Shown in pieces: positions 1 to 52,855 of a stretch of 52,974 nucleotides of DNA (positions within the stretch are counted from its first letter, which is position 1; every line of letters begins with the position of its first letter). Under the pieces are notes generated by a model. That model saw only the letters and a program-made list of their open reading frames with translations. It was not told where the DNA came from and searched no databases. This stretch comes from Acidobacteriota bacterium (lineage in GTDB: Bacteria; Acidobacteriota; Terriglobia; Bryobacterales; Bryobacteraceae), in contig VFZU01000029.1 in the NCBI GenBank assembly GCA_016870995.1, positions 1-52,974 on the forward strand, read 5' to 3'. Position numbers and translations under genes: made by a program.

Positions 1-146
1 AAAGGATCTTTCAAGGAAGGAGAGATCAATTAAGAAGAAGCGGTGGAGTATGATCAGCGTATGGCGGTTTGCTGAGGCGTGCGGTTTTTTGAAAAACAGG
101 GTGTGACGTGGCAGGCTGTCCCCTTCTTTGTCCCCTTCTTCCCGGG
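1..146. other. Intergenic segment left of the IS element
   Basis: No credible gene is visible here. The one structured item is a perfect 12-bp tandem duplication at 117-140 (unit tgtccccttctt, which reads aagaaggggaca on the other strand). GGGGACA-containing short repeats of this kind are also found right of the rhodopsin cassette at 4683-4730. The left edge is cut by the window, so the neighbouring gene is unknown. Confidence 0.5.
117..140. repeat. Two 12-bp tandem repeats (GGGGACA type)
   Basis: Positions 117-128 and 129-140 are identical copies of tgtccccttctt. The core ggggaca on the minus strand recalls the units of the array at 4683-4730 on the far side of the rhodopsin cassette. Similar short arrays often sit next to REP-associated transposase relics; that link is inference here. 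Confidence 0.6.
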
Positions 147-1517
147 TACGCTCCGACCACATAGGTGACAAAACGTGCTAACCACATCGGGAACACTTTT
201 AGGGCAAGCTTCAAGAGCGATGCCCTGGAAAGAGACCGTAGCAATGGAAGAACGATTTCGATTGATCGAGCGCTGGAAGGAGAGCGAAGAGAGCATCTCC
301 GATCTTGCGAAGCGGTTTGGAGTGAGCCGCAAGACAGTATACAAGTGGCTCGAGCGCTATGAACAGGGTGGCATTGAAGACTTGGCGGATCGCTCAAGGA
401 GGCCACTGGTACAAGCTGGGCGGACGCCGGGAGAGTTGGAGCAATGGATCGTGAATTTGCGCCAAACGCATCCAACGTGGGGGCCGAAGAAGCTGAAGCG
501 ATTCCTGGAAAGGCACCAACCGGAGCTTGCCTGGCCGGCTGAGAGCACCGTGGCGCTGATTCTGGATCGCAATGGGCTGACAACGAAGAAGAAGAGGCGC
601 CGCAGAGCCACGCCATCGCAGCAGCCTTTGGCGCAGGCCAAGGAGCCAAACGACATCTGGTCGATTGACTTCAAAGGGTGGTTTTGTTGCGGGGATGGCA
701 CTCGATGCGATCCGCTCACGGTGAGCGACGCTGCGTCGAGATTTCTGTTGTGCTGCCATGCGATGGAGAGAACCACCACGCCATTTGTGATGGCCAAGTT
801 AAGCAAGGTGTTTCGGGAGTATGGCATACCCGCCCGGATGCGAAGCGACAATGGAACGCCATTCGCTTCCACCGGATTCGGTGGTCTAAGCAAGCTGAGT
901 GTATGGTGGATCCGGCTCGGTATCCTGCCTGAGCGCCTTGAACCAGGAGAGCCCCAACAGAATGGCCGCCACGAGCGGATGCATCGCACGATGAAGCAAG
1001 AAACGGCCAACCCGGCGGCTGAGGATAGACAGAAACAACAGAAGCGCTTTGACGAGTTCAAGAGGGTTTACAACTTCGAGCGCCCCCACGAGGCATTGAG
1101 CGGAGATTGTCCGGCCGACCACTACACGGCATCGTTGAAGCCATTTCCAGAGAGGCTATTGGAGCTTGAGCATCCCAGTGGCTTTGAGATGCGCAAGGCC
1201 GATGAAAGCGGCAAGTTTCGTTGGAAACAGGCGCGGTGCAGGCTCGGAGAGGCACTGGCGCATGAGGTGGTTGGAATAGAAGCAGTCGACGATGGAATGC
1301 AGAGAATCTGGTTCGGTCCCGTCTGGCTCGGGCTGCTCGATGAACGCAAGGGCTACCGGCAGGCCGCGACGAAGGAAACGAGCAGTTGGCCGCCTCTGCA
1401 GTCGCCCTTCGGGCTCCCTCCGAGGCGGCCAACTGCTAAAAAGGAAGGGGAAGACAAATCTGAGAATGTGTAACCCATGTGCTTAGAAACTTTTGTTACC
1501 CATGTGCCGGAGTGTTC
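147..1517 (+). mobile_element. IS481-family insertion sequence with inverted ends
   Basis: The element is bounded by imperfect inverted repeats. The left block 158-187 and the right block 1477-1506 match as reverse complements at about 24 of 30 positions. The match continues outward through CTCCG (left 151-155, right complement 1507-1512) with a one-base offset. Each 30-base block begins and ends with CACAT or its complement, so each end carries an internal duplication. A single transposase gene fills the interior. The exact tips and any target duplication could not be fixed. The right end lies about 125 bp before the rhodopsin start codon. Confidence 0.75.
220..1473 (+). CDS. IS481-family DDE transposase
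   Basis: This protein catalyses cut-and-paste or copy transposition of the surrounding element. From the ATG at 220 it has about 417 residues. An N-terminal helix-turn-helix (SDLAKRFGVSRKTVYKWLERY) is followed by a basic linker (KKKRRRR) and an RNase H-like integrase core. The first acidic residue lies in IWSIDFKG, the second in RSDNGTPF and the glutamate in HERMHR, giving a complete DDE triad. The C-terminal part carries the usual IS481 RPHEAL motif. The frame is open 45 bases further upstream to a TTG at 175, but the ATG fits the HTH start better. The gene is full length with no lesion, so the element may still be active. Confidence 0.9.
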   Translation: MPWKETVAMEERFRLIERWKESEESISDLAKRFGVSRKTVYKWLERYEQGGIEDLADRSRRPLVQAGRTPGELEQWIVNLRQTHPTWGPKKLKRFLERHQPELAWPAESTVALILDRNGLTTKKKRRRRATPSQQPLAQAKEPNDIWSIDFKGWFCCGDGTRCDPLTVSDAASRFLLCCHAMERTTTPFVMAKLSKVFREYGIPARMRSDNGTPFASTGFGGLSKLSVWWIRLGILPERLEPGEPQQNGRHERMHRTMKQETANPAAEDRQKQQKRFDEFKRVYNFERPHEALSGDCPADHYTASLKPFPERLLELEHPSGFEMRKADESGKFRWKQARCRLGEALAHEVVGIEAVDDGMQRIWFGPVWLGLLDERKGYRQAATKETSSWPPLQSPFGLPPRRPTAKKEGEDKSENV

Positions 1518-1631: not shown

Positions 1632-1637
1632 AGGAGG
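1632..1637 (+). promoter_or_regulatory. Shine-Dalgarno site fixing the rhodopsin start
   Basis: A perfect AGGAGG lies 4 bases before the ATG at 1642. It selects this ATG over an upstream in-frame start at 1585, which would add 19 residues that do not resemble an opsin N-terminus. Confidence 0.75.
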
Positions 1638-1641
1638 TTGT

Positions 1642-2439
1642 ATGTTACAATCCGTCTCTCTCTCTCAATACGACTTGGTGTACAACGCCTTTTCGTTCAC
1701 TATTGCGGTGATGGGAGCAGCTACTGCATTTTTGTTTTTGAATCGCAGCCAGGTTGCTCCAGTCTACCGCACGGCAATTTCAATTTCCGGCTTGGTAACG
1801 TTCATCGCGATGTATCATTACATCCGCATCGCGGCGTCCTGGACCGAATCGTTCATAGTCAAAAGTGGTCAGGTCACGCCCAGTGGTGTATTGTTCAATG
1901 ATGCTTACCGTTACGTTGACTGGCTCCTTACCGTACCGCTGCTCTTGATTGAGCTGATTTTGGTCATGAAGTTGTCCCGATCAGAAACAGTCGCCAAGGC
2001 CACCAAACTCGGTACACTTGCGGCCTTGATGGTCATCATGGGCTACCCGGGAGAAATCTCGACCGATAGTGGCACCCGTTGGCTTTGGTGGTCTTTGTCT
2101 ATGATTCCCTTCCTGGTAATCGTGTATGACCTCTTCTTCGGCTTGAAGAATTCCATTGATTCTCAGCCGGAATCCGCACGCGGGCTGGTCAGCTCCGCTC
2201 GCTACGTGACGGTTGTGTCGTGGTTGTTCTACCCGATTGTGTTCACGCTGCCGATGCTCGGCTTCGCGGGCGGCGAGGCGACAACCGCCGTGCAGGTTGG
2301 CTACACGATCGCTGACATCGTCTCCAAAGCAGGCTTCGGCATATTGATCTACATGATTGCTGTACGTAAATCAGAATCAGAAGCGGAACACGCTCAGTCA
2401 GATGTGGTCGGATTATCACCCAAGCCAACTGCCGTCTAA
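1642..2439 (+). CDS. Light-driven proton pump, xanthorhodopsin-like
   Basis: This 265-residue, seven-helix type 1 rhodopsin binds retinal and should export protons across the inner membrane in light. Helix C holds RYVDWLLTVPLLLIE: R90, proton acceptor D93, T97 and donor E104 (a DTE pump motif). The residue at the proteorhodopsin tuning position, L101, predicts green absorption. H59 in helix B is placed to pair with D93, as in xanthorhodopsin. Helix G has D225 and the Schiff-base lysine K229 (ADIVSK). Helix E reads RWLWWSLS; W150 aligns with bacteriorhodopsin W138, where antenna-binding xanthorhodopsins have glycine, so a carotenoid antenna is unlikely. It is the first gene of a cassette with crtY and blh. 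Third codon positions look less G/C-rich than in flanking genes, which with the adjacent IS suggests transfer. An anion or sodium pump is excluded by the motif. Confidence 0.93.
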   Translation: MLQSVSLSQYDLVYNAFSFTIAVMGAATAFLFLNRSQVAPVYRTAISISGLVTFIAMYHYIRIAASWTESFIVKSGQVTPSGVLFNDAYRYVDWLLTVPLLLIELILVMKLSRSETVAKATKLGTLAALMVIMGYPGEISTDSGTRWLWWSLSMIPFLVIVYDLFFGLKNSIDSQPESARGLVSSARYVTVVSWLFYPIVFTLPMLGFAGGEATTAVQVGYTIADIVSKAGFGILIYMIAVRKSESEAEHAQSDVVGLSPKPTAV

Positions 2440-2454
2440 CAGGCGATTTGTTGA

Positions 2455-2482
2455 GAGCCGGCGTGTGGTTTACGACCGGCTC
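2455..2482 (+). terminator. Hairpin between rhodopsin and crtY (attenuator-like)
   Basis: GAGCCGG (2455-2461) pairs with CCGGCTC (2476-2482), and the stem is extended inward by CGT/ACG with one bulged base, leaving a loop of about 7. Only a short, mixed CTCCGTTT follows, so it is a poor intrinsic terminator. It could partly stop transcription or protect the 3' end of the rhodopsin message, keeping opsin mRNA above that of the biosynthetic enzymes. Function is inferred from structure and position only. Confidence 0.45.
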
Positions 2483-2508
2483 CTCCGTTTAAGCATGGAA
2501 AGGACCCC

Positions 2509-3705
2509 ATGAGCAACGATTATGACCTTGTCATCATCGGTGGCGGCTGTGCTGGCTTAAGTTTGGCTAGTCGGATAAGCGAACTTGGCAACTCCTCACC
2601 ACGAACGCTAGTCCTCGACAGCCGTTCCAACTACTCCAATGACCGGACTTGGTGCTTCTGGAATTTACCTTCCTCCCAAGCATCCCATTTAGCGCGGTAT
2701 CAATGGTCGAAGTTCCGTGTCGCCACTGAACACCAAGAGATCATCGTCAACTGCTCGGATTATGCCTATTGCGCGGTACCGGGCGATGATTTTTATCGGC
2801 ACTCATTGACCACCATCGGGAAGAACCCACAATTAACGATTCAGAGCGGCTGCCCGGTGTTAGGCTCCGTTCAGCGGGCGGGTGATAGGTGGGAGATTGA
2901 AACGCCGGAAACGATCTTTACAGCCAACAATGTCGTGGATACCCGCCCGGTAAAGGCCCCGCAAGTTGGCGGCGCAATACTGTGGCAGACCTTTATCGGG
3001 GCCGAAATCGAAGTCGATGCTGAGTTGTTTGCAGCCGGACAAGTGACTCTTATGGATTTTGAGCAAAGTCCGCTCGGTCGAATTGTGTTCACCTATGTTC
3101 TGCCATTTACCGCTAACCGCGCCCTAGTGGAGGTGACTGAGTTTTCGCCCACTCTTCTGCAGCCATCTCAGCTCCAAGACTTCCTGACGCTGGCAATTAA
3201 AGATATTACCCAGGGAGGCGAATACCGCTGTTTGCGCAACGAGTCCGGTGTTTTGCCTATGGGCCAGACCCCATTACCGCAATCACTTTCTCCCGGCCAT
3301 GCCGTTGGCTCGTCCTTCGTTAGGGCAGGGGTGGCCCATGGCGGGGCACGCCCTTGCACGGGCTATGCTTTCCAGCGCATACAGTGCTGGGCCACCCAAT
3401 GCGCAGTATCTCTTGTAGAGAAAGGCTACCCCGTCGCGCACCGCAAAGATGGTTATGCAATTGCTTTTCTCGATCACTTGTTCTTGCGCGTCTTGAAAGA
3501 CGAACCAAATCTCGGCCCAAATCTGTTCACTCAGCTATTCGGCTCCGCGCCTACTCCGTCGGTGCTGCGTTTTTTGGGAGATTGCGCCACGCCCGCCGAT
3601 ATTTTGCAGGTCATCAGTGCTCTCCCGCCCAGTCCTTTTATAAGGGCGCTGTTAGACCTTTGTCGAAGGCCTGGAGTCGCTTGGCGGGAATTACTCGCGT
3701 CATGA
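2509..3705 (+). CDS. crtY: Lycopene beta-cyclase
   Basis: The enzyme cyclises both ends of lycopene to give beta-carotene, the precursor of retinal. The 398-residue protein opens with a dinucleotide-binding fold (IIGGGCAGLSLA, residues 9-20), followed by the CrtY signature DRTWCFW at 45-51. Near the C-terminal third it has the ARPCTGYAFQRIQ stretch that matches the family's conserved R-x-TTGY block. Length is typical of CrtY. A GGAAAGGA ribosome site lies just before the ATG. Its stop codon overlaps the start of blh (ATGA), so the two are translationally coupled. Cyclase and dioxygenase next to a rhodopsin form the standard retinal module. Genes for lycopene synthesis itself are absent here, so lycopene must come from elsewhere in the genome. 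Confidence 0.92.
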   Translation: MSNDYDLVIIGGGCAGLSLASRISELGNSSPRTLVLDSRSNYSNDRTWCFWNLPSSQASHLARYQWSKFRVATEHQEIIVNCSDYAYCAVPGDDFYRHSLTTIGKNPQLTIQSGCPVLGSVQRAGDRWEIETPETIFTANNVVDTRPVKAPQVGGAILWQTFIGAEIEVDAELFAAGQVTLMDFEQSPLGRIVFTYVLPFTANRALVEVTEFSPTLLQPSQLQDFLTLAIKDITQGGEYRCLRNESGVLPMGQTPLPQSLSPGHAVGSSFVRAGVAHGGARPCTGYAFQRIQCWATQCAVSLVEKGYPVAHRKDGYAIAFLDHLFLRVLKDEPNLGPNLFTQLFGSAPTPSVLRFLGDCATPADILQVISALPPSPFIRALLDLCRRPGVAWRELLAS

Positions 3706-4682
3706 ATTTGTTGCGATTGCAGAGTTTTTCCTTCATCTCCATCGCTGCGGCAGCTTGCACGTATCATATGAGTTTTGGCCTTCCCCAGGGACAGACTAGC
3801 CTACTCGTTCTGATCCTGTGTATTGTCTTTCTGGGTATTCCCCACGGTGCCCTCGATACTCTTTATGGCGGCCAGCTCTTTGGGATTCACCGCCCCAGTA
3901 GGTGGCTGTTGTTCACTGCAGCCTACCTTCTTCCCGTGGGCTTCGTCTTGCTTTTGTGGCCGTTTTGGTCGCCATTCTTGCTAGCGCTGTTCTTGGTTGT
4001 CTCCACGTTGCATTTCTCTGGGGATCCGCAACCCAATTGTCCGCTTTGGTTGCGGATTCTCTATGGCGGCGTGCCCATCGTCTTTCCCACTCTGTTCCAT
4101 AGCGGTGAAGTGAAATTTCTGTTCACTTCACTCGTTGCGGAAGCCACTGCGACGGGCTTTGTGAATGTACTCAATTTCATGGTCTTGCCTTGGTTGGTTG
4201 CGTTTGCTTTTGGGGCCGTATGGTACGTGAGGCATCAGCGGCGCGCAGCGATAGAAATGATAGCGGCAGCAGCGCTTTGCTGTGTTGCCCCGCCCTTATT
4301 TGCCTTCACGGTGTTCTTTTGCTTCATGCACAGTGCTCGGCACATCCTTCGTAGTCTGGCGGCGGGTGAAGTGTCCCTTCCAGTCCTCCAGCAGAATGCC
4401 AAGAGGGCGTTGGTCGCCGCTGCAGCACCCATGTTTGGAACGCTGTTGATTTTAGGTTTCTACTGGCAAAATGTGGAAAGTGTAGCGCTTGAGCCGCGTC
4501 TCCTCCAAACCGTATTCGTTGCTCTTCCTGCCTTGACATTCCCGCATGTACTGCTTGTCGACTGCTTTTACCGCTGGGCGGGAAGGCCCCGGCTGGATAC
4601 CAGAAGCGAGCACCGGGGGAATCTGGTGGAATCGAATGCGACCGCACAACCCGGTGGCAATGCTAATGCCTACGAAATGTAG
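3702..4682 (+). CDS. blh: Brp/Blh-family beta-carotene 15,15'-dioxygenase
   Basis: This integral-membrane, iron-dependent enzyme cleaves beta-carotene into two retinal molecules for the opsin. The 326-residue protein has many hydrophobic helices and the family histidines: GIPHGALD (H48, D52), TLHFSG (H104), FMHSARH (H210, H214) and TFPHVLLVD (H282). The ATG at 3702 overlaps the crtY stop by 4 bases; the frame is open much further upstream, but that part lies inside crtY. The C-terminal 35 residues after the last helix are hydrophilic and not family-like. The stop codon directly abuts a 16-bp tandem array whose units begin gaaatg, and the gene's own last bases are gaaatgtag, so the repeat insertion may have set the present 3' end. 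Confidence 0.9.
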   Translation: MNLLRLQSFSFISIAAAACTYHMSFGLPQGQTSLLVLILCIVFLGIPHGALDTLYGGQLFGIHRPSRWLLFTAAYLLPVGFVLLLWPFWSPFLLALFLVVSTLHFSGDPQPNCPLWLRILYGGVPIVFPTLFHSGEVKFLFTSLVAEATATGFVNVLNFMVLPWLVAFAFGAVWYVRHQRRAAIEMIAAAALCCVAPPLFAFTVFFCFMHSARHILRSLAAGEVSLPVLQQNAKRALVAAAAPMFGTLLILGFYWQNVESVALEPRLLQTVFVALPALTFPHVLLVDCFYRWAGRPRLDTRSEHRGNLVESNATAQPGGNANAYEM

Positions 4683-4730
4683 GAAATGGGGACAGACTGA
4701 AATGGGGCCAGACTGAAATGGGGACAGACT
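4683..4730. repeat. Three 16-bp tandem repeats next to the blh stop
   Basis: Units lie at 4683-4698, 4699-4714 and 4715-4730. Units 1 and 3 are identical (gaaatggggacagact) and unit 2 differs at one base (a to c). The sequence after the last unit, gacccgtccc, can pair with GGGAC inside the unit (GGGAC...GTCCC), giving a REP-like partial palindrome. The array starts at the base after the blh stop and is followed 60 bases later by a REP-associated transposase remnant. Confidence 0.85.
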
Positions 4731-4790
4731 GACCCGTCCCAATGCAAAATCCGTGGAGGAATCTACCGAAAGCCGCACTGTGACAATGAA

Positions 4791-4970
4791 ATGCAAGACA
4801 AGCTCGCATCATTTATCCCGGCGTTGCGCACCACGTGACGCAATGCGGAACCAACCGGCAGAAGGTGTTTTACTCGCAGCGCGACCGTAAAGTTTATCTG
4901 GATTTGCTGAGGCACAACTCCGAATTATCGGGAGTGCGCATACTGGCTGACTGCTTGATGCTTGACCTTC
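4791..4970 (+). pseudogene. Remnant of REP-associated Y1 transposase (RAYT)
   Basis: Read from CGC at 4804, the frame gives RIIYPGVAHHVTQCG...NRQKVFYS and then RKVYLDLLRHNSELSGVRILADCLM, which matches the N-terminus of IS200-like Y1 (TnpA_REP) transposases. Two lesions are visible. One base is missing just after the ATG at 4791, because ATG-CA-AGA-CAA-GCT would read MPRQA with one added base. The similarity ends at CLM (about 4960), where PNHVH with the HUH metal histidines should follow. The catalytic motif and everything downstream are lost, so the gene is dead. Confidence 0.7.
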
Positions 4971-4971
4971 C

Positions 4972-5310
4972 CCGCGTGCTCTGCACACTCCAAAATCCGA
5001 AGTGCGGACGAAGAGAAGTAGAAAGAGTCTGAAGGCGGCGAAGTACATCTTGCCTTGCCCTTAATTCCGCGTACACTACTTTCTCGTTTTTCCTAGTTGA
5101 TTTAGCGACCATTCGATCTGTGCTGATGCGACTTCGAGGCGTCGAGTCAGTTTGAACGCCAAGGGTGCAGTAGGGGTGCATCGCGGGGGGTAGCGAATTT
5201 GGCCTAGCCTTGTGTTGATTGGGGCTTGGGCATAGCGAATTCGCTGATTGTTGCGGGGCGCTCCGAGAGAGTCGGCGGGGGATTTCTCGTCAACCCTTTG
5301 CTCCTGCCGG
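4972..5310. other. Intergenic stretch without a gene
   Basis: This region separates the mobile remnant from the 3' end of the TonB-dependent receptor. Short open frames exist on both strands, but none has a ribosome site or a family-like sequence. No hairpin or repeat stands out. Confidence 0.5.
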
Positions 5311-7140
5311 TCAGAAGACGAAGCGGAGGCCCATTTGCATGATGCGGGGGCCGGAGGTGGTGTCGATCTGGCCGGGGCGGACGGCTCCGATGTTGGAGCG
5401 CGGGTTGCCCAGGTTGGCGTGGTTGAAGGCATTGAACATCTCCCAACGGTATTGGAGTTCTTGGCGCTCAGTGAATCTGAAACCCTTGAAAAGCGCGAAG
5501 TCAAGATTGTAGCTGCCGGGGCCGATTAGGACATTTCGTCCGAAGTTTCCAAAGGTTCCTAAGGCCGGGATGGCGAAGGCGGCGGCGTCGAAATACGCAG
5601 CCATCTGTTCGTCGCGGGAGCGGCCCGAGGCCAGGTAAGGATTGCCAACCAGGTTGGCGCGTTGCGTGCCGGTGCCAGTTAGAGCACGATCACTGCCGGA
5701 GACCACGTTGACGGGAGTGCCCGTTTGAGAAGTGAAGATGCCGTTGGTTTGCCAGCCGCCGAGGATCCACTTGGCGATGCCGGTCTTGGGGCCGGGAAGG
5801 TCCCAGAGGAAGCTGGCGACGAAGCGCTGGCGGACATCGAAGTCCGAGAGCGCTTTGTCGGCGCCGATGTCGAAGGGGTTCTGGCCGTTGAAGCCGTCGA
5901 CTTCAAGAGAAGACATATCGAGGGAGCGACCGTAGGTGTAGCTGGCGAGGATGGTGTAGCCCTTGGAGAAGCGCTTGTTGAGAGTGAGTTGGAGCGAGTT
6001 GTAACTGGAGTTGATGATGCTCTGGTAATTGGTGATGCTTTGGAAGGCCGGGGCGTAGATGCGACGGGCGTTGATGTTGGCTGTGGTGGCGCCGGGGCCG
6101 AATCGTGCCGGGTTCTCTTCGACTCTCATCGGGAGCTTCGTGCCCTTGGATCCGATGTAGGCGGCGGTGACGGTGAATTCGGAGGCCAATTCCCGCTGGA
6201 CGTTGACGTTCCACTGCTGCAGGTAAGCGGTGGCGAGGTTCGGATCGATGGAAAGGCCGACAGTGACCGGCAGCAGGAAGCGGTAGGCGGCGCGTTCGGC
6301 CTGGGTGGCGGGCGGTGCGTAGGGGAAGGGATTCTGTTGGCCTCGGTAGGGATCTGACAGGCTGAAGGGCTGGTTGATGGTGGTTTGGAATGAAAAGGGT
6401 GGTGAGTTGACGAAGTGGCTGAGCTGGTGGAATCGCGGAGAGTCAAAGAAGATGCCGTAGCCCAGGCGGACACTGGTTTTGGTGGAGCCACCGGGACGCC
6501 AGGCCAGGCCGGCGCGCGGGGCGAGGTTGTTCCAATCGGTTCGCGTGCCGCCGCGCTGGACGCCGGCGTCGCCGACATAGAGCAGACCGGTGGGTCCGGT
6601 GGGGTAGACGGTGGATTTCTGGCCGGGCCGGAAAACGGTGAGTTCGTCGTTCTTGGCGTAGAAGGGGAGGTAGGGTTCCCAGCGCAGGCCGAGGCTGAAG
6701 TTCAGGTTGCTCGTTAGTTTGATGTCGTCCTGGACGAAGAGTGAGGGGGAACAGTTCGCGTTTTGGTTGATGCGTAGGGAGCCTTGCATGAAGTTGAAGG
6801 GACGGCCGAGGAGGAAGTCGGCGAATGGTTCGTTGGCGAAGCGGCCGTCGAAGTTGAATTGGGGGTCGATGCCGTTGCCGGTGACGCGGTCGGAGTAACT
6901 GTAGCGGATTTCGCCGCCGAATTTTAGCTGGTGGCGGCCACGGATCCAGGAGAGGTTGTAAGTTCCCTGGTAGGTTCGCCGGTCGATGGTGACGAGGTTG
7001 TCCTGGTTGAGGTTCCAGTAGCCGGTGCCCTGGCCGCGGTAATGGGGGACGAGAGTGAGGCCGCTCGATTCCGGCGCGCCGCGGCCGACGTTGATGCCGA
7101 GGTCCTTGTAAGAGACGCCCTCGCCCGAGCCGACCGGGAG
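5311..7140 (-). pseudogene. TonB-dependent receptor, C-terminal barrel part (after frameshift)
   Basis: This is the downstream part of the gene whose 5' part is at 7141-8498. The frame is open through about 610 codons. It starts with a segment running YKDLGINVG and HQLKFGGEIRYS, then FANEPFADFLLGRP and SLFVQDDIKLTSNLNFSLGLRWEPYLPF, all typical of the outer-membrane beta-barrel of Oar-like TonB-dependent receptors of acidobacteria. The protein ends MQMGLRFVF, with the C-terminal phenylalanine used for barrel insertion by the BAM complex. Restoring one base near 7140 would join both parts into one protein of about 1060 residues, a normal family length. The substrate is unknown; such receptors import oligosaccharides or other large nutrients. 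Confidence 0.85.
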
Positions 7141-8498
7141 CGGGCGATTTTGGTCTGGTTGCCGGTGAACTGGCCCACGGCGAGGAGTGACGGCGAAAGC
7201 GTCCAGGTGTGCTGGCCTTGGATGTTCCAGTTGTCGAAGGCATTCTGGGCGCGGAGGACGGGGAGGCCGGCGGTGTTGTTGGCCGCGCTGGCGCTTTGGA
7301 AGACGCGGCCGGAGATGCGCTGCGATGGCTTGAGAACGTGATCGACGCGAGCGATGATCTGGTCGGCGTTTTCGTTGGCGGGACGGTTCCAGACGTAGCG
7401 GTTTCCTGAGGAGTTGGGCAGCGGGACCTGGAGCTTGTCAAGGAAAGCGAGGGCGGCGGGATCGATCCGCGAGGCGGGAATGGTGGCATTGGGAAAGGGC
7501 GCGTTGTTGGCGTTGGGGTCGGTGGGTCTACGGGCGAGGGCGGAGAAGTCGCCGGCGCGCTGGGCGGGCGTGGCGGTCACCAGACCGGAGAAGGTGGCGG
7601 CCTGGCGCTCGCGGAGGCCTTCGTAGGAGGCGAAGAAGAACGTGCGGTTTTTGACGATGGGTCCGCCGATGGAGCCGCCGAATTGGTTGCGGCGGAGCTT
7701 GCCTTTTTGCAGGCCGAAGAAGGCGCGCGAGTCGAGGGCGTCGTTGCGGAGGAACTCATAGGCCGAGCCGTGGAATTCGTTGGTGCGGGATTTGGTTGTG
7801 GCGTTGATGATGGCGCCGGAGTTGCGCCCGAACTCGGCGGAGAAGTTATTGGTTTGGATGCTGAACTCTTCGAGGGCGTCGGGATTGGGAATGAGCGAGG
7901 CGGTGTTGAGTTGGGGGTCGTTGTTATCGCCGCCGTCGAGTAAGTAGTTGTTGGCGGTGCCGCGCGCGCCGTTGACGGAGATGCCTTCGTTCTGGCCGAG
8001 GCCATTGTTGCCGCCTGAGGAGACTGCGCCCGGGACGAGGCGCACGAGTTGCAGGGCGTTGCGGCCGTTGAGCGGGAGCTCGGTGATGCGGCGCTCGTCG
8101 ACGGTCTCCTTGATGGTTGCGCCTACGGTTTCGACCACCGAGACAGAGCCGCCGACGGTGATCGCTTCGCTGAGTTGGCCGAGTTCGAGCTTCGCTTCGA
8201 CCTGGCGTGTGGCCTCGGCGTCGAGGCGGAACGAAGGGGACTTGAAGGGGCGGAAGCCGTCGCGGGTGACTTCGACCTGGTAGTCGCCAATGGGGAGGCG
8301 AGGCAGGATGAAGCGGCCGTTGTCGTCGGAGGTGGCAGTGAAGACCAGGCCTGTCAGGTGGTTGACGCCTCTGACGGAAGCGCCTGCGACGGCGGCACCG
8401 GAGGAGTCATACACAGCGCCGTTGATCTGGCCGGTGGATTGGGCGAGGAGTGAGGCGGCGGCGAGCGCCAACAGCAGAAGGTGTTTCATTGTTTGCAT
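7141..8498 (-). pseudogene. TonB-dependent receptor, N-terminal plug part (before frameshift)
   Basis: The reading frame encodes a signal peptide (MKHLLLLALAAASLLAQ, from M4), a carboxypeptidase-regulatory-like beta-sandwich of about 80 residues (GQINGAVYDSSGAAVAGA... NGRFILPRLPIGDYQVEV), and the TonB plug with ELPLNGRNALQLVRLVPG, ISVNGARG and NNYLLDGGDNND. The first barrel strands follow. Sense is lost after QFTGNQTKIAR near 7141, where the frame turns Ser/Arg/Thr-rich while the correct continuation is in another frame (LPVGSGEGVSYKDLG). One base is missing there. Either an assembly error or a recent mutation would explain it. A start at M1 (8498) or M4 (8489) is possible. Upstream lie the cyanophycinase-like and matrixin genes on the same strand. 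Confidence 0.85.
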
Positions 8499-12101: not shown

Positions 12102-12643
12102 TGACGCGTCCCCCGTGCGGTGCGCTTGCGCAGAGTGGCCAGGGGCATGGACAGGCCCGTGTCTTCCACAGGTTGGCCAGATGCGTTCACCATCTGTTCG
12201 TTGGACTTGTTGCGGACGATGATGAGGTTGCCCTTGTCATCTTTGGCAATGTTCATCAAGCCCTGGCTAAGGCCCATGATCTGCTTGAGCCCGCTCTTAC
12301 CCTGCCAGAGGAAGAAAACGTATTCGGTGTTGCGGGTTAGGGTAGGGGATCCTTCAAAGGATTGGCGGAAGCCAGCGGCAGTGCCCCCCGGAATGGCCAC
12401 CTGGACTTTGGCGCCCGGTGAGCCCTTGAACGCTTCGGTGACGTTGACTTCGCAAACGGTCCAGATGACCGGAGGGCGATAGGTTTGATTGCAGTAGGCG
12501 ACCGTGCCGCGAAGAATCTCGGTGGAATCGTTGATCAAACGTTCTTCCGAAAGTTGTTCGAGGGTTGCGGCGCACGACACTCCCGGCATCAAGCTGGCAA
12601 GCAGCAGGAGGCCGAGGGGGAGGATTGCGCTACGGCGAGGCAT
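12098..12643 (-). CDS. Small exported protein coupled to the matrixin gene
   Basis: The frame extends to 12916, but the first sensible start is the ATG at 12643, giving 181 residues with a clear signal peptide (MPRRSAILPLGLLLLASLMPGVSCAA). The mature part begins with TLEQLSEERLINDSTEILRGTV, has two cysteines (AYCNQ and TVCEV) that could form a disulfide, and contains a beta-rich middle part (NVTEAFKGSPGAKVQVAIPGG). I do not recognise a named family. The stop codon overlaps the ATG of the downstream metalloprotease (12099-12101), which argues for a shared function such as an inhibitor, chaperone or co-secreted partner. That role is inference. The C-terminus is basic (RKRTARGTRQ). Confidence 0.75.
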   Translation of the reverse strand: MPRRSAILPLGLLLLASLMPGVSCAATLEQLSEERLINDSTEILRGTVAYCNQTYRPPVIWTVCEVNVTEAFKGSPGAKVQVAIPGGTAAGFRQSFEGSPTLTRNTEYVFFLWQGKSGLKQIMGLSQGLMNIAKDDKGNLIIVRNKSNEQMVNASGQPVEDTGLSMPLATLRKRTARGTRQ

Positions 12644-12793
12644 AGTATCTATGGCATGTTTGGAAGCAAGTATTCTTCCGAAGTACTGCATTGATTCTAA
12701 AGCATTTGCGGAGATCAGGCAAGGTGTTTGTGTGGCCTTGGGACACAGTTTGACCCACCCGGATGTCTCAACGTGGAGGTATTGTGAGAAGTG

Positions 12794-14359
12794 ATGCCGC
12801 GCGTTTTTGGTGTACTTGTTGTGCTGACCGGGATGGTTTGGGGGCAGTCCGGGCCGGACCGGCTGGGGCGGACGACGCCGAAATCGAGCTTTCTTGGCTA
12901 CTTGAAAAGTGCCCATGAGGGGAACTTCTCAAAGGCGGCGAGATATCTGCAATTTCCTGCGGAAGTTCCTGAAAAGGATAGAGTTGAGCTGGCGCGGCAA
13001 CTGCAGTTTGTGCTCGACCGGGATTTTGTTGGGAACTTCGACAGCATCAGTTCCAAGCCCGAGGGCAGTTCTGAGGAAGGCTTGGCGGCGGACCGGGAAA
13101 GCATTGGCGCGGTGATTGGAGGCGATCAATCGAGCCCGATCCTGATGGTGCGGGTGAGCGAAGGGGGCCAGCAGGTGTGGCTGTTGAGCCACGAAATGGT
13201 GCAGATGGTGCCGCATTTGTTTTCTGAATTCGGTTTTCCGGAGTTGGAGAAGCGATTGCCGAGGTGGACGATCGACATGCATTTCTGGTCGATGCCGATT
13301 TGGGTGCTGGCGTCGATTGCGGCTGCGATTCCGTTGGCGTTCGGAATCGCACTTGGGCTGATTTGGGTTGGTACCCGGTTTTTGCCGGCGCGTTGGGAGG
13401 TGTCGCCAAGGCCAAACCTGCCGGCTGTGCTGTTTGTGACGCTGATTCTGCACTCGATCGCGGCCCAGCTTTTGGGGCTGCCATTGCTTTATCGAGTCTG
13501 GTACGCGCGAGTTCTGCGCGTGCTGTGGTTGCTGGTGATTGTCTGGGTTATTTTCAGCTTGATTGGATTTGTGGATCGAAGGATCCGCGAGTATTTGGAG
13601 CGAAACCAACTGACATCGACGCAATCGCTATTGCAGTTGGGCAGGCGGTTGCTGCAGTTGCTGGTTTTGTTGGGGGCGGTGTTGATTGGGTTGCGCGGCT
13701 TTGGCTACGACATCACGGCGGCGCTGGCAGGACTTGGGATCGGCGGTATTGCGATTGCGTTTGCGGCGCAGAAGACGCTGGAGAACGTGTTTGGGGGATT
13801 GACGCTGCTGAGCGAAGAGAGCATTCGTGTGGGGGACAGTTGCAAGTTTGATCAGACCATCGCGACGGTGGAAGATATCGGACTGCGGGCGACGCGTTTC
13901 CGGACGGTGCAACGCAGTGTGATGTTCATCCCGAATGGGCAGTTGGCGACGATGACGATTGAGAATCTTGGATTGCGCGACCAGATTCTTTTTAAGCATG
14001 TGATCGGCGTGAAGTATGGGATGGAGCCTTCGGAGATGACAGCGTTGCTTGAGGAGTTGAGGTTGTTGCTGGCAAAAGATGCGCGTGTTGCCGTGGAAGG
14101 CCAACGCGCGCAGTTTCTCAAGTTTGGCACCTACTCGCTCGATATTGAGCTGTTCGCTTATGTGCTTACGAACGACTATGCTGAGTTTCTGCGGATTCAG
14201 GAAGAGCTGTTGCTCGGGGTGATGATGATCGTCAGGAAGCACGACTCGGAGTTTGCGTTCCCGTCGCAGACGCTGTATGTGGAGAAAGGGCGGTTGCGTC
14301 TTGATGAGGCTGGGCTTGAGCCCGAAGTTTCACCTGGGCCAGGAGCAGGCGCCGAATGA
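12794..14359 (+). CDS. MscS-family mechanosensitive channel with exported N-domain
   Basis: The protein of about 521 residues should release solutes on hypo-osmotic shock. It opens with a signal peptide (MPRVFGVLVVLTGMVWGQ) and a soluble periplasmic domain of about 130 residues rich in charged residues. At least four membrane helices follow between residues about 165 and 310. The last is the pore helix of MscS (GYDITAALAGLGIGGIAIAFAAQKTLENVFGG). The beta domain follows (IRVGDSCKF... GLRATRFRTVQRSVMFIPNGQL), then the C-terminal alpha/beta domain ending FPSQTLYVEKG. A GTG directly precedes the ATG at 12794 and could also serve as start. TGGAGG lies about 15 bases upstream. The last 128 bases overlap the 3' end of the opposing SRPBCC-like gene. 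Confidence 0.9.
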   Translation: MPRVFGVLVVLTGMVWGQSGPDRLGRTTPKSSFLGYLKSAHEGNFSKAARYLQFPAEVPEKDRVELARQLQFVLDRDFVGNFDSISSKPEGSSEEGLAADRESIGAVIGGDQSSPILMVRVSEGGQQVWLLSHEMVQMVPHLFSEFGFPELEKRLPRWTIDMHFWSMPIWVLASIAAAIPLAFGIALGLIWVGTRFLPARWEVSPRPNLPAVLFVTLILHSIAAQLLGLPLLYRVWYARVLRVLWLLVIVWVIFSLIGFVDRRIREYLERNQLTSTQSLLQLGRRLLQLLVLLGAVLIGLRGFGYDITAALAGLGIGGIAIAFAAQKTLENVFGGLTLLSEESIRVGDSCKFDQTIATVEDIGLRATRFRTVQRSVMFIPNGQLATMTIENLGLRDQILFKHVIGVKYGMEPSEMTALLEELRLLLAKDARVAVEGQRAQFLKFGTYSLDIELFAYVLTNDYAEFLRIQEELLLGVMMIVRKHDSEFAFPSQTLYVEKGRLRLDEAGLEPEVSPGPGAGAE

Positions 14360-14984
14360 TGGCCATGCCGGGTGAGAAAACGGCCCAATAGTTACGAAAG
14401 CGCCGTTTCGAATCTGGGCACGTGGCGACGGCGCGGGTTTCAGTGACCACGATCGAGGTTTCGGCGGAGAGTGGATGCGCCGCGATGCTGAACGCGATTT
14501 TCACGTAGCCAGGTTTGTCGAAGGCGAGGAACCGATCGGGGTCGATGGGCTCGAAGACCGGGTTGGGGTCCCATGGGCGGGTGGCGGCTCCCATGACGAT
14601 GGTGCGCCCCGGGATGATCGCAAGTGTGCCCCAGCCCATGTTGGACATGCGGGTGAACAGTGGGGTTGGCTCGATGGGTTGAGATGGACTCGCGCCCAGC
14701 AACCATTCGCGGGTTCGAAAGATGGCGCGGTTGAGCGGTGAGGCTTCGAGGTCCGCCATTTGAATTGAGTTCCAGCAATCGTCAGCGGTGGCCTCGATGT
14801 GCGTGGAGTGATTGGTAGCCACATCGCTTTGCGGCATGAAGATGTCGAGCAGTGGATTGTCGCGGAGCAGGCGCGGATGGCCAAAGCGAAGCCAGGAGAA
14901 TGCGAAGTAAGATGCGCATCCGGCCAAGGCAAGCGCGGATGCCGCGAGGAGATATCTGGAGCGTTCTGATCTGGGTGAGTGCAT
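14232..14984 (-). CDS. SRPBCC-like membrane-anchored protein
   Basis: The 250-residue protein has one N-terminal membrane helix (YLLAASALALAGCASYFAF), then a domain of about 150 residues whose end (FSIAAHPLSAETSIVVTETRAVATCPDSKRRFRNYWAVFSPGMAIIRR) resembles START/SRPBCC-type lipid or small-ligand-binding proteins. The last 40 residues (after LLLAQVKL) are low-complexity and lie antisense to the mscS 3' end, so the natural stop may have been lost. Upstream is a flavodoxin-like gene on the same strand whose frame runs over this one. The function is unknown. Confidence 0.6.
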   Translation of the reverse strand: MHSPRSERSRYLLAASALALAGCASYFAFSWLRFGHPRLLRDNPLLDIFMPQSDVATNHSTHIEATADDCWNSIQMADLEASPLNRAIFRTREWLLGASPSQPIEPTPLFTRMSNMGWGTLAIIPGRTIVMGAATRPWDPNPVFEPIDPDRFLAFDKPGYVKIAFSIAAHPLSAETSIVVTETRAVATCPDSKRRFRNYWAVFSPGMAIIRRLLLAQVKLRAQAQPHQDATALSPHTASATGTQTPSRAS

Positions 14985-15622
14985 AAGTGTTGGGGGAATG
15001 AACTCATGGGTGCGGGATTTAACCCAGCCGTGGATTCGATCTTGGCGGTGTGAGAGAGTCGCGCTGCAGTGTCGCGGCCGAACTGTCTGGCGAGATCGAG
15101 TGCAACACCGAGATTTGGTTCAGAGAGGCGAGACTTGTCGTTCGGGCGCAACAGCCAGAAGGAGCGAACAGCGATGAGGGTGCCGCCGGTATCGCGTAAA
15201 GATTGCTCCAGAATTTCCTTGGCCCGATCGGTGGCTCCGGAGCCACCAATCAAGCCGATCAGAACATTCGATTTGAGGTGCGCCCGCCGCAAGTACCAGA
15301 GAGTGGGTAAATCGAGAGTCCAATAATAAGGGTTTGAGACTACGGCAACTCGTCTGTAGGCATGAAATGCGTTCGGGGTGCCGGGCGACATAGTGGCGCG
15401 ATCAACTTGAACCCCGCCCTGATGCAACCCTTCCGCCAGCGCCAGCGAAAGATCGTCGCTGAAGCGGGTATCTCGACTGGGATGGTAAAGAATCAGCGCT
15501 TTGGGGCCAGAGGCATTTTTGATCTCTTCAATCACGAATGCGCTGGGAAACTCAACCAGAATCGTTACCGAAGTAACAGCGATCGCCAGTATCCAAAGCG
15601 CCAGTTTGATTCTTTTGCGCAC
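14501..15622 (-). CDS. Flavodoxin-like membrane-anchored protein, 3' end unclear
   Basis: Only the first 200 or so residues look real. They comprise an N-terminal membrane helix (KLALWILAIAVTSVTILVEF) and a flavodoxin-like fold: KALILYHPSRDTRFSDDLSLALAEGL at the phosphate-binding loop position, RVAVVSNPYYWTLDLPTLWYLRRA, and LIGLIGGSGATDRAKEILEQSL. After ARQFGRDTAARLSHTAKIESTAG the frame stays open to 14501 but runs Pro/Ser/Thr-rich over the downstream gene in a different frame. In the +1 frame a TGA occurs at 15004-15006, so a one-base slip would end the protein at about 205 residues. The start is GTG. FMN-dependent electron transfer is possible. Confidence 0.6.
   Translation of the reverse strand: MRKRIKLALWILAIAVTSVTILVEFPSAFVIEEIKNASGPKALILYHPSRDTRFSDDLSLALAEGLHQGGVQVDRATMSPGTPNAFHAYRRVAVVSNPYYWTLDLPTLWYLRRAHLKSNVLIGLIGGSGATDRAKEILEQSLRDTGGTLIAVRSFWLLRPNDKSRLSEPNLGVALDLARQFGRDTAARLSHTAKIESTAGLNPAPMSSFPQHLCTHPDQNAPDISSRHPRLPWPDAHLTSHSPGFALAIRACSATIHCSTSSCRKAMWLPITPRTSRPPLTIAGTQFKWRTSKPHRSTAPSFEPANGCWARVHLNPSSQPHCSPACPTWAGAHLRSSRGAPSSWEPPPAHGTPTRSSSPSTPIGSSPSTNLAT

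Positions 15623-51097: not shown

Positions 51098-52855
<1,758 letters not shown>

Follow-up and report, generated by a model that had tools for sequence, protein, structure and literature searches.

Rhodopsin photosystems are passed from lineage to lineage, in many cases as nearly complete clusters. The relatives of the locus described here include rho-(crtE)-crtI-crtB-crtY-blh clusters from Verrucomicrobiota, Pseudomonadota, and Acidobacteriaceae MAGs (e.g., L067, L079, and L084; L denotes cluster records of relatives outside the family, G genomes, and C contigs of the host genome). We analyzed a window of 52,974 nucleotides from a 99% complete Bryobacter genome (Bryobacteraceae; G000), which holds at positions 1642 to 4682 a cassette of three genes, all on the forward strand and all with open frames, coding for a rhodopsin, a CrtY lycopene cyclase, and a Blh dioxygenase. 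It shares with the full clusters the pump family, the position of crtY 5' of blh, and the common direction. However, no crtE-crtI-crtB lies between rho and crtY, and these genes come instead from a resident operon whose CrtB belongs to a distinct lineage. Searches of the open-licence literature found no paper pairing Bryobacter with rhodopsin, and among the papers listed by wider searches, no title or abstract start names Bryobacteraceae. The strings acidobacteri-, xanthorhodopsin, and fenestr- do not occur in PMC9601134, and no xanthorhodopsin-family rhodopsin was found in the accessible portions of PMC2889829 and PMC5459899.

A preliminary description of the locus had proposed a complete set for converting lycopene to retinal together with a pump, and the matches to PF01036, PF05834, and TIGR03753 in open frames bear this out. 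The second gene (2509 to 3705, forward strand, 398 aa) codes for a CrtY-type lycopene cyclase that matches PF05834 (Lycopene_cycl; E = 2.5e-43, 149 bits against a cut-off of 23.4) and carries an FAD-binding GGGCAG motif; the FAD-binding glycines G11 and G13 are conserved, and E208 is kept in all 36 aligned rows. It also matches TIGR01790 and TIGR01789, both under their cut-offs, and a PDB sequence search gave just two weak matches, both dimethylglycine dehydrogenases. Its predicted product is beta-carotene, with two beta rings. The crtY stop overlaps by 4 bp with the ATG of the third gene (3702 to 4682, forward strand, 326 aa), a Blh/Brp beta-carotene 15,15'-dioxygenase (TIGR03753, E = 1.7e-42, 145.8 bits against a cut-off of 95.25; PF15461, E = 6e-39), for which no relative was found in the PDB by sequence at an E of 1 or less. 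Its histidines H48, H104, H210, H214, and H282 are invariant in 32 of 32 rows, and we take the first four to be metal ligands. The genes missing from the cassette had been expected elsewhere in the genome, and indeed crtE, crtI, and crtB are found together on contig C41, at about 12277 to 15492 (PF00348, TIGR02734, and PF00494). Against NCBIfam, TIGR02734 alone passed (CrtI, 624 bits), while the CrtE and CrtB models matched under cut-off; hence, the products of these two are predictions, as is lycopene as the product of the operon. By these assignments, the predicted retinal pathway is complete across the genome, with crtE, crtI, and crtB on C41 and crtY and blh in the cassette.

Among 237 Bryobacteraceae genomes, the pump was found in 13, crtY (at least 100 bits) in 13 (12 pump genomes plus G090), and Blh above its cut-off in 11 (10 pump genomes plus G090, whose cassette is interrupted by a contig end). 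In G026, rho meets ambiguous bases ahead of helix G, while that of G047, at a contig end, lacks its N-terminal half, the crtY of G093 is split over two frames, and the Blh of G154 is matched in two pieces. A crtB of at least 230 bits is present in 51 of the 237 genomes, being found in 12 of the 13 pump genomes against 39 of the other 224 (Fisher p = 3.5e-8, not corrected for kinship); G083, a pump genome 92% complete, has none at 230 bits. The new observation here is that rho and crtY are adjacent in Bryobacteraceae (11 of the 11 genomes with readable layout), whereas in most relatives outside the family (31 of 45) rho is followed by crtI, nearly always with crtB. Compact clusters are also found in Gemmatimonadaceae, Chloroflexi, and Rhodovibrio records. 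The search for a resident CrtI in compact-cluster hosts outside the family covered L069 and L077, leaving out Rhodovibrio L076, and in each of the two a CrtI scoring over cut-off lies on a different contig. Full-cluster hosts G240, G244, G245, and G247 also hold further CrtI-family genes over cut-off. Rhodobacter possesses its own carotenoid pathway. According to the accessible part of PMC9231093, Rhodobacter calidifons retains a full cluster. Considering also the further CrtI genes of the four full-cluster hosts, we conclude that trimming need not follow from having a resident pathway, so that a strict two-way rule between resident pathway and compact cluster is rejected.

On the left, positions 1 to 44 are the end of a multi-copy repeat, presumably IS3-like (88 to 89% identical to 19 places among the matches listed, all near contig ends), at which the contig breaks. 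An IS481-family element follows (148 to 1515, forward strand; transposase at 175 to 1473; NF033577, 240.9 bits against a cut-off of 224), with imperfect inverted repeats at 148 to 199 and 1465 to 1515; its end lies 126 bp 5' of the rhodopsin start, and the search of the host genome yielded no second copy. A Shine-Dalgarno-like AGGAGG (1632 to 1637, forward strand) stands 4 bases 5' of the rhodopsin ATG, and the count of promoter-like sites at the locus is not above chance expectation. Immediately 3' of the blh stop lies a 16-bp tandem repeat, GAAATGGGGACAGACT, in 3.1 copies (4683 to 4732), with no more copies in that part of the genome covered by the loci searched. The preliminary description was right about the IS481 element and the tandem repeat, but its "dead RAYT" is unconfirmed, since the candidate truncated RAYT-like fragment (4802 to 5032, forward strand), which may resemble a RAYT N terminus over 4802 to 5029, finds no support from Pfam or PDB sequences. 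Beyond it, in the flank and outside the cassette, is a TonB-dependent receptor-like gene frameshifted into two ORFs (5311 to 8498, reverse strand; PF25183 in both halves). A composite transposon is rejected for want of matching IS copies on both sides. A plasmid or phage vehicle is rejected as well, the plasmid matches being two Polymorphobacter records at 58.6% identity and the phage matches none. With the IS481 element in single copy, the part in the acquisition formerly ascribed to mobile elements was not borne out. An empty site was sought by following the 855-aa right-flank gene through eight Bryobacter genomes, and also its neighbor of about 1000 aa, which the host genome carries on C6, some 23 kb away from the end of that contig. 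Of the other seven Bryobacter genomes, four (G046, G047, G048, and G050) are readable for at least 7 kb past the shared right-flank gene, a stretch that lacks the cassette and varies between genomes; the readable stretch is under 2 kb in G052 and less in G049 and G051. The left flank of the window stops at the contig break, and the right-flank region varies too much for any one place in it to be called an empty site.

The rhodopsin (1642 to 2439, forward strand, 265 aa; PF01036, E = 6.5e-42) is a predicted xanthorhodopsin-family proton pump, and its nearest solved chain in a PDB sequence search is the xanthorhodopsin of Salinibacter ruber (3ddl, E = 1.5e-72). The H, R, D, T, E, D, and K positions are conserved with 3ddl and Kin4B8, members of the same family by sequence from different hosts. 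By alignment, the pump residues are H59, R90, D93, T97, L101, E104, W150, D225, and K229, with the DTE motif intact, so that the residue set of proton pumps is in place: the helix C Asp/Thr/Glu, the His by the counterion, and the helix G Asp and Schiff-base Lys. Light-driven outward proton transport, probably with green light, is the predicted function. The closeness to 3ddl might point to a carotenoid antenna as in Salinibacter, but the antenna-site glycine (Gly156 in Salinibacter and Gly153 in Kin4B8, according to the accessible part of PMC13093654) is replaced by Trp150 in the window pump and by Trp in 12 of 12 Bryobacteraceae rows; hence, an antenna seems extremely improbable. By these residues, the predicted pump belongs to the xanthorhodopsin family but does not class as an antenna xanthorhodopsin. 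Nor does a light sensor or an inactive protein seem at all probable. The pump role is deduced from sequence, and CrtY and Blh evolve fast (pN/pS 0.39 to 0.51, less constrained than rho), but the protein keeps the full complement of counterion, donor, and Schiff-base residues seen in proton pumps, no transducer was recognized by eye among the neighboring ORFs, and rho is under constraint (pN/pS 0.15 to 0.17).

The pump tree (58 rows, with AU tests on constrained groupings) was compared with GTDB group codes and crtB itself as the species reference. The window pump groups with G111, from another genus, and with G083 and G093, from a third (support 100/98), while G050 and G047, of the same genus as the window, group with G154 and two Acidobacteriaceae; the CrtY tree recovers the same family groups except for the long-branched G047 row. 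In the resident crtB tree, by contrast, the five Bryobacter rows fall into a single clade (SH-aLRT 99), and the 29 Bryobacteraceae rows are separate from 21 rho-cluster rows (99). This discordance suggests that the cassette came by gene transfer, not descent, supporting the lateral acquisition proposed earlier. Presence in the Bryobacteraceae ancestor followed by loss from most lineages would fit the patchy distribution of the pump, and loss does happen, as a broken rho remnant in G048 indicates (residues about 72 to 177 gone, no crtY at 100 bits and no Blh match in G048, and a left neighbor without a match in the host genome). Such vertical inheritance is nonetheless improbable, as the AU test rejects single clades of the three Bryobacter pump rows (p = 9e-5), of the window plus G050 alone, and of the 12 Bryobacteraceae pump rows (p = 8e-5), genus g22 holds two cassette groups (G083/G093 versus G094/G101), crtB clusters by genus, and, leaving aside widespread TonB receptors, no cassette flanks are shared among relatives except in G094/G101. 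The absence of common flanks, the nearby IS481 element, and the repeat end at the contig break would also fit recent delivery as a transposon by flanking mobile elements (IS481 or RAYT-type), but the single IS481 copy, the unsupported RAYT fragment, and the saturated synonymous divergence of rho (pS 0.75 to 0.79 versus three near relatives) make this highly unlikely; with the divergence saturated, the recency first proposed for the acquisition is not supported. A more serious possibility, albeit still doubtful, is that the short layout came first, with crtI-crtB inserted later elsewhere and no trimming. The tree calls for at least five changes of layout and favors neither direction for them, and compact clusters extend beyond the family; however, 28 of the 42 scored rows have the full layout, these rows coming from several phyla and including deeper branches (for instance, L099 to L106), and the 21 rho-cluster crtB genes form one group.

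Codon usage sets the cassette genes apart from the resident crt genes, as their fit ranks in the 12th, 2nd, and 4th percentiles (rho, crtY, and blh) among 279 reference ORFs, against the 56th, 89th, and 82nd for crtE, crtI, and crtB. The GC3 contrast with the flanks claimed at the outset holds in part: the right-hand neighbors are higher (0.78 to 0.81, against 0.64, 0.58, and 0.60 for rho, crtY, and blh), but the window ORFs of at least 200 aa span 0.55 to 0.81, so the contrast is partly local, and the GC3 of rho by itself is ordinary (26th percentile).

Considering all this, we propose, with a probability of about 0.8, that 1642 to 4682 is a xanthorhodopsin-family photosystem module, fed by the resident crtE-crtI-crtB and acquired horizontally in short form by a lycopene-making host. 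The operon on C41 would make lycopene, which CrtY would cyclize to beta-carotene and Blh would cleave to retinal; retinal would attach to K229, and the pump would export protons with light, probably green, energizing the membrane. The module would have been gained without crtE-crtI-crtB by a host already making lycopene, and the host's own crtE, crtI, and crtB may be what allowed the short form to be tolerated. That Bryobacteraceae bear a host-complementing module, with two or three independent rho-crtY-blh arrivals, each bringing just the steps missing from the host carotenoid pathway, is a tentative extension to which we give somewhat less than even odds. If true, one three-gene transfer could make a lycopene-making heterotroph light-assisted. 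What moves here would be only the pump together with the two enzymes that act after lycopene, whereas crtB, which acts upstream, follows the host genus; this suggests a testable rule as to the hosts for which three genes are enough to gain light-driven energy; Bryobacteraceae would join the candidate photoheterotrophs.

Other described systems, as presented in the accessible parts of their sources, resemble this one only partially. The Acidiparvus (Holophagaceae) rhodopsins (PMC11561045) are also from Acidobacteriota and have the DTE motif and the green-type Leu, but they are termed proteorhodopsins, their crt genes are reported absent, and they are judged not recently transferred. The cluster of Vibrio campbellii (PMC3380642) is likewise a set of genes for rhodopsin and retinal that a heterotroph acquired horizontally, with transposases on its flanks; however, it comprises a proteorhodopsin with the full crtE-I-B-Y-blh set. 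In the blh-proteorhodopsin pair of Dokdonia MED134 and Gillisia limnaea (PMC3587595), as in the window, part of the retinal pathway stands by the pump and the rest lies elsewhere in the genome, but there blh alone adjoins the pump, whereas in Bryobacter both crtY and blh do.

The cassette and its resident upstream genes lie apart in this 5.72-Mb Bryobacter genome (215 contigs, 98.99% complete, 0.46% contaminated), and a split pathway is well supported. The window is the entire contig C29, starting at a contig break, and profile matches on its forward strand confirmed the gene positions in the preliminary description: rhodopsin at 1642-2439 (PF01036, E=6.5e-42), lycopene cyclase (CrtY) at 2509-3705 (PF05834, E=2.5e-43) and a Blh-type beta-carotene dioxygenase at 3702-4682 (TIGR03753, E=1.7e-42). 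AGGAGG lies four bases upstream of the rhodopsin ATG (1642), and the crtY stop and blh ATG overlap. A search for crtE, crtB and crtI, which that description expected elsewhere, found all three consecutive on contig C41 (about 12277-15492), matching PF00348 (crtE, 116 bits), TIGR02734 (crtI, 624 bits, cut-off 238) and PF00494 (crtB, 266 bits) and followed by a molybdopterin oxidoreductase and then a possible acyltransferase. For CrtB and CrtE from C41, every NCBIfam model stayed below its cut-off. The CrtB is read as a putative phytoene synthase from position and distance, because it adjoins crtI and is distant from the two other SQS_PSY genes of the genome, which are on contig C104 near squalene-hopene cyclase (one is HpnC over cut-off).

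The rhodopsin gene (rho) adjoins crtY in all 11 Bryobacteraceae genomes where this is readable; outside that count stand G111 (split by contig ends), G090 (no rho end) and G048 (a remnant). The rho frame of G026 is incomplete, reaching ambiguous bases before helix G, as is that of G047, at a contig end and without its N-terminal half, and the frame of G024 contains an ambiguous codon. Seven of the 52 named rhodopsin loci are Bryobacteraceae contigs already counted as genomes, and the other 45 were scored. In 26 of them, all outside the family and including two Acidobacteriaceae MAGs (L081 and L084), crtI and crtB stand between rho and crtY; in four, crtI-crtB follows rho and crtY was not found, and one breaks off within crtI. 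The compact layout occurs in three (L069, Gemmatimonadaceae; L076, Rhodovibrio; L077, Chloroflexi), and in 11 the queries used matched no crtI, crtB or crtY. On the tree, layout was scored for 42 rows (14 compact and 28 full, with 16 left out) and changed at least five times. In L069 and L077, the compact hosts outside the family that were searched, crtI exceeded the cut-off on another contig, told apart from the cluster contig by its length and by the absence of shared sequence. The reverse rule, by which a resident crtI would imply a compact cluster, fails, since four full-cluster hosts have additional CrtI-family genes.

PF01036 is present in 13 of the 237 family genomes and in 8 of 396 evenly drawn Acidobacteriota genomes, the window's included. 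Weak PF05834 matches are widespread (E<=0.001 in 181 genomes, of which 128 exceed the low Pfam cut-off). With the best seven candidates per genome scored, strong matches (at least 103 bits; the next is 43 bits) fall at 14 places in 13 genomes, namely 12 of the 13 pump genomes (G048 excepted) and G090, whose crtY-blh pair starts at a contig end without a rho end. PF15461 matches 14 genomes, and the 11 over cut-off are 10 pump genomes and G090; the pump genomes lacking it are G048, the remnant, plus G050 and G083, in both of which the contig breaks off within crtY. With the threshold set at 230 bits, inside a gap in the scores (232.6 to 215.3 bits; matches below it include hopanoid enzymes), 51 genomes encode a crtB-type protein, comprising all pump genomes but G083 (12 of 13) and 39 of the 224 others (Fisher p=3.5e-8, not corrected for kinship).

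Several relatives carry damaged or second sets. Beside the family type, G024 (MAG contamination 6%) has a second compact rho-crtY-blh set (L021:3967-6899, minus strand), whose rhodopsin is ~30% identical to the window's over 122 residues and has D-T-S as its helix C residues (FIDWSVTTPLLLLSL). The rho of G048 is a broken, decaying remnant (L030:6538-6968) missing ~105 middle residues, next to a gene that we take for a membrane pyrophosphatase, and crtY of G093 (L019:4926-6130) lies in two overlapping frames, through a frameshift or an assembly error.

A lateral origin of the cassette is well supported. Besides the window, the 58 rows of the pump tree comprise 11 further rows from the family, 41 named loci and five solved chains; the tree omits seven duplicate family contigs, the G048 remnant, the second G024 rhodopsin, and L086, L096, L104 and L111, with frames unusable or too short. 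The window clusters with G111, G083 and G093, from two other genera (100/98); G050 and G047, of the window's own genus, form a five-row group with G154 and two Acidobacteriaceae (93/91), and the remaining five family rows in a 12-row group with Pseudomonadota and one Gemmatimonadaceae (92/89). AU tests rejected a single Bryobacter clade (p=9e-5), a single Bryobacteraceae clade (p=8e-5) and also the window with G050 alone (the G047 row is short, 128 aa). A quick CrtY tree recovered the same family groups, bar the long-branched G047 row, and shifted the non-family rows L068 and L070. In a quick tree of resident CrtB, five Bryobacter genomes stand together, and 29 family rows, drawn from the 51 crtB genomes, separate from 21 rho-cluster rows (SH-aLRT 99 for each, without bootstrap; L056 and L104 dropped for want of a row); the CrtB nearest to that of the window's genome is from G048 (78%). 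The pump tree contradicts vertical inheritance. Arrival time and vehicle are not well supported, and neither is the word "recent" used at first for the acquisition; synonymous sites of the cassette genes are saturated or close to it against relatives.

Composition supports a foreign origin. Against 279 ORFs of at least 200 aa from twenty 20-kb stretches (called by length, some false), rho, crtY and blh rank at the 26th, 4th and 6th percentiles in GC3 and the 12th, 2nd and 4th in codon fit. The contrast with the flanks noted earlier looks bigger than it is because the neighbours are extreme, the adjoining receptor halves and peptidase being at the 97th-99th GC3 percentile. To the right follow tandem repeats and what may be a RAYT fragment, then a TonB-dependent receptor-like gene split by a frameshift (5311-8498, minus strand; pseudogene or assembly error), a peptidase of the S51 type and a gene of 855 aa whose orthologs occur in 8/8 Bryobacter genomes. 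Past that ortholog, G046, G047, G048 and G050 are readable for at least 7 kb, with no cassette in that stretch; G052 is readable for less than 2 kb, and G049 and G051 for still less. Among the cassettes of the family, only G094 and G101 have flanking genes in common; other sharing is limited to TonB receptors, which form an abundant family and are 25-36% identical here, and to a weak G101-G154 match (37%). Left of the IS481 element, an 81-base repeat (47-127) recurs on contig C9 at 52099-52179 and 53216-53297, 1.1 kb apart (96% and 90%). Many contig ends of the assembly carry a multi-copy element whose terminus is constant (TGACCTGACGCCC...), at window 1-44 and at 19 listed places close to contig ends; its transposase start looks IS3-like.

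The cassette proteins look functional from their residues. The closest-structure comparison gave xanthorhodopsin 3ddl (E=1.5e-72), and in that alignment the pump retains H59, R90, D93, T97, E104, D225 and K229, with L101 at the position where, as PMC11561045 describes, leucine marks green absorption in proteorhodopsins. Blh keeps H48, H104, H210, H214 and H282 in 32/32 aligned rows, and CrtY its FAD glycines, with E208 in 36/36. The pN/pS of rho against three relatives (0.15-0.17) indicates constraint, weaker in crtY and blh (0.39-0.51). A glycine opens the carotenoid site (Gly156 in Salinibacter, Gly153 in Kin4B8), and many rhodopsins have tryptophan there, as PMC13093654 describes. The aligned residue in the window's pump is Trp150; of the 58 rows, 44 have tryptophan at this position, every one of the 12 Bryobacteraceae rows included, and glycine is the residue of the five solved members and of nine further rows. 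By sequence, then, the pump belongs to the xanthorhodopsin family yet probably has no carotenoid antenna.

Partial gene sets adjoining a rhodopsin have precedent: in Dokdonia MED134, as described in PMC3587595, blh stands beside proteorhodopsin. Full sets are reported as common in Verrucomicrobiota (PMC10284914), and one in Vibrio campbellii (PMC3380642). Of what is new here, the most useful is that the short form occurs in hosts with upstream genes of their own.
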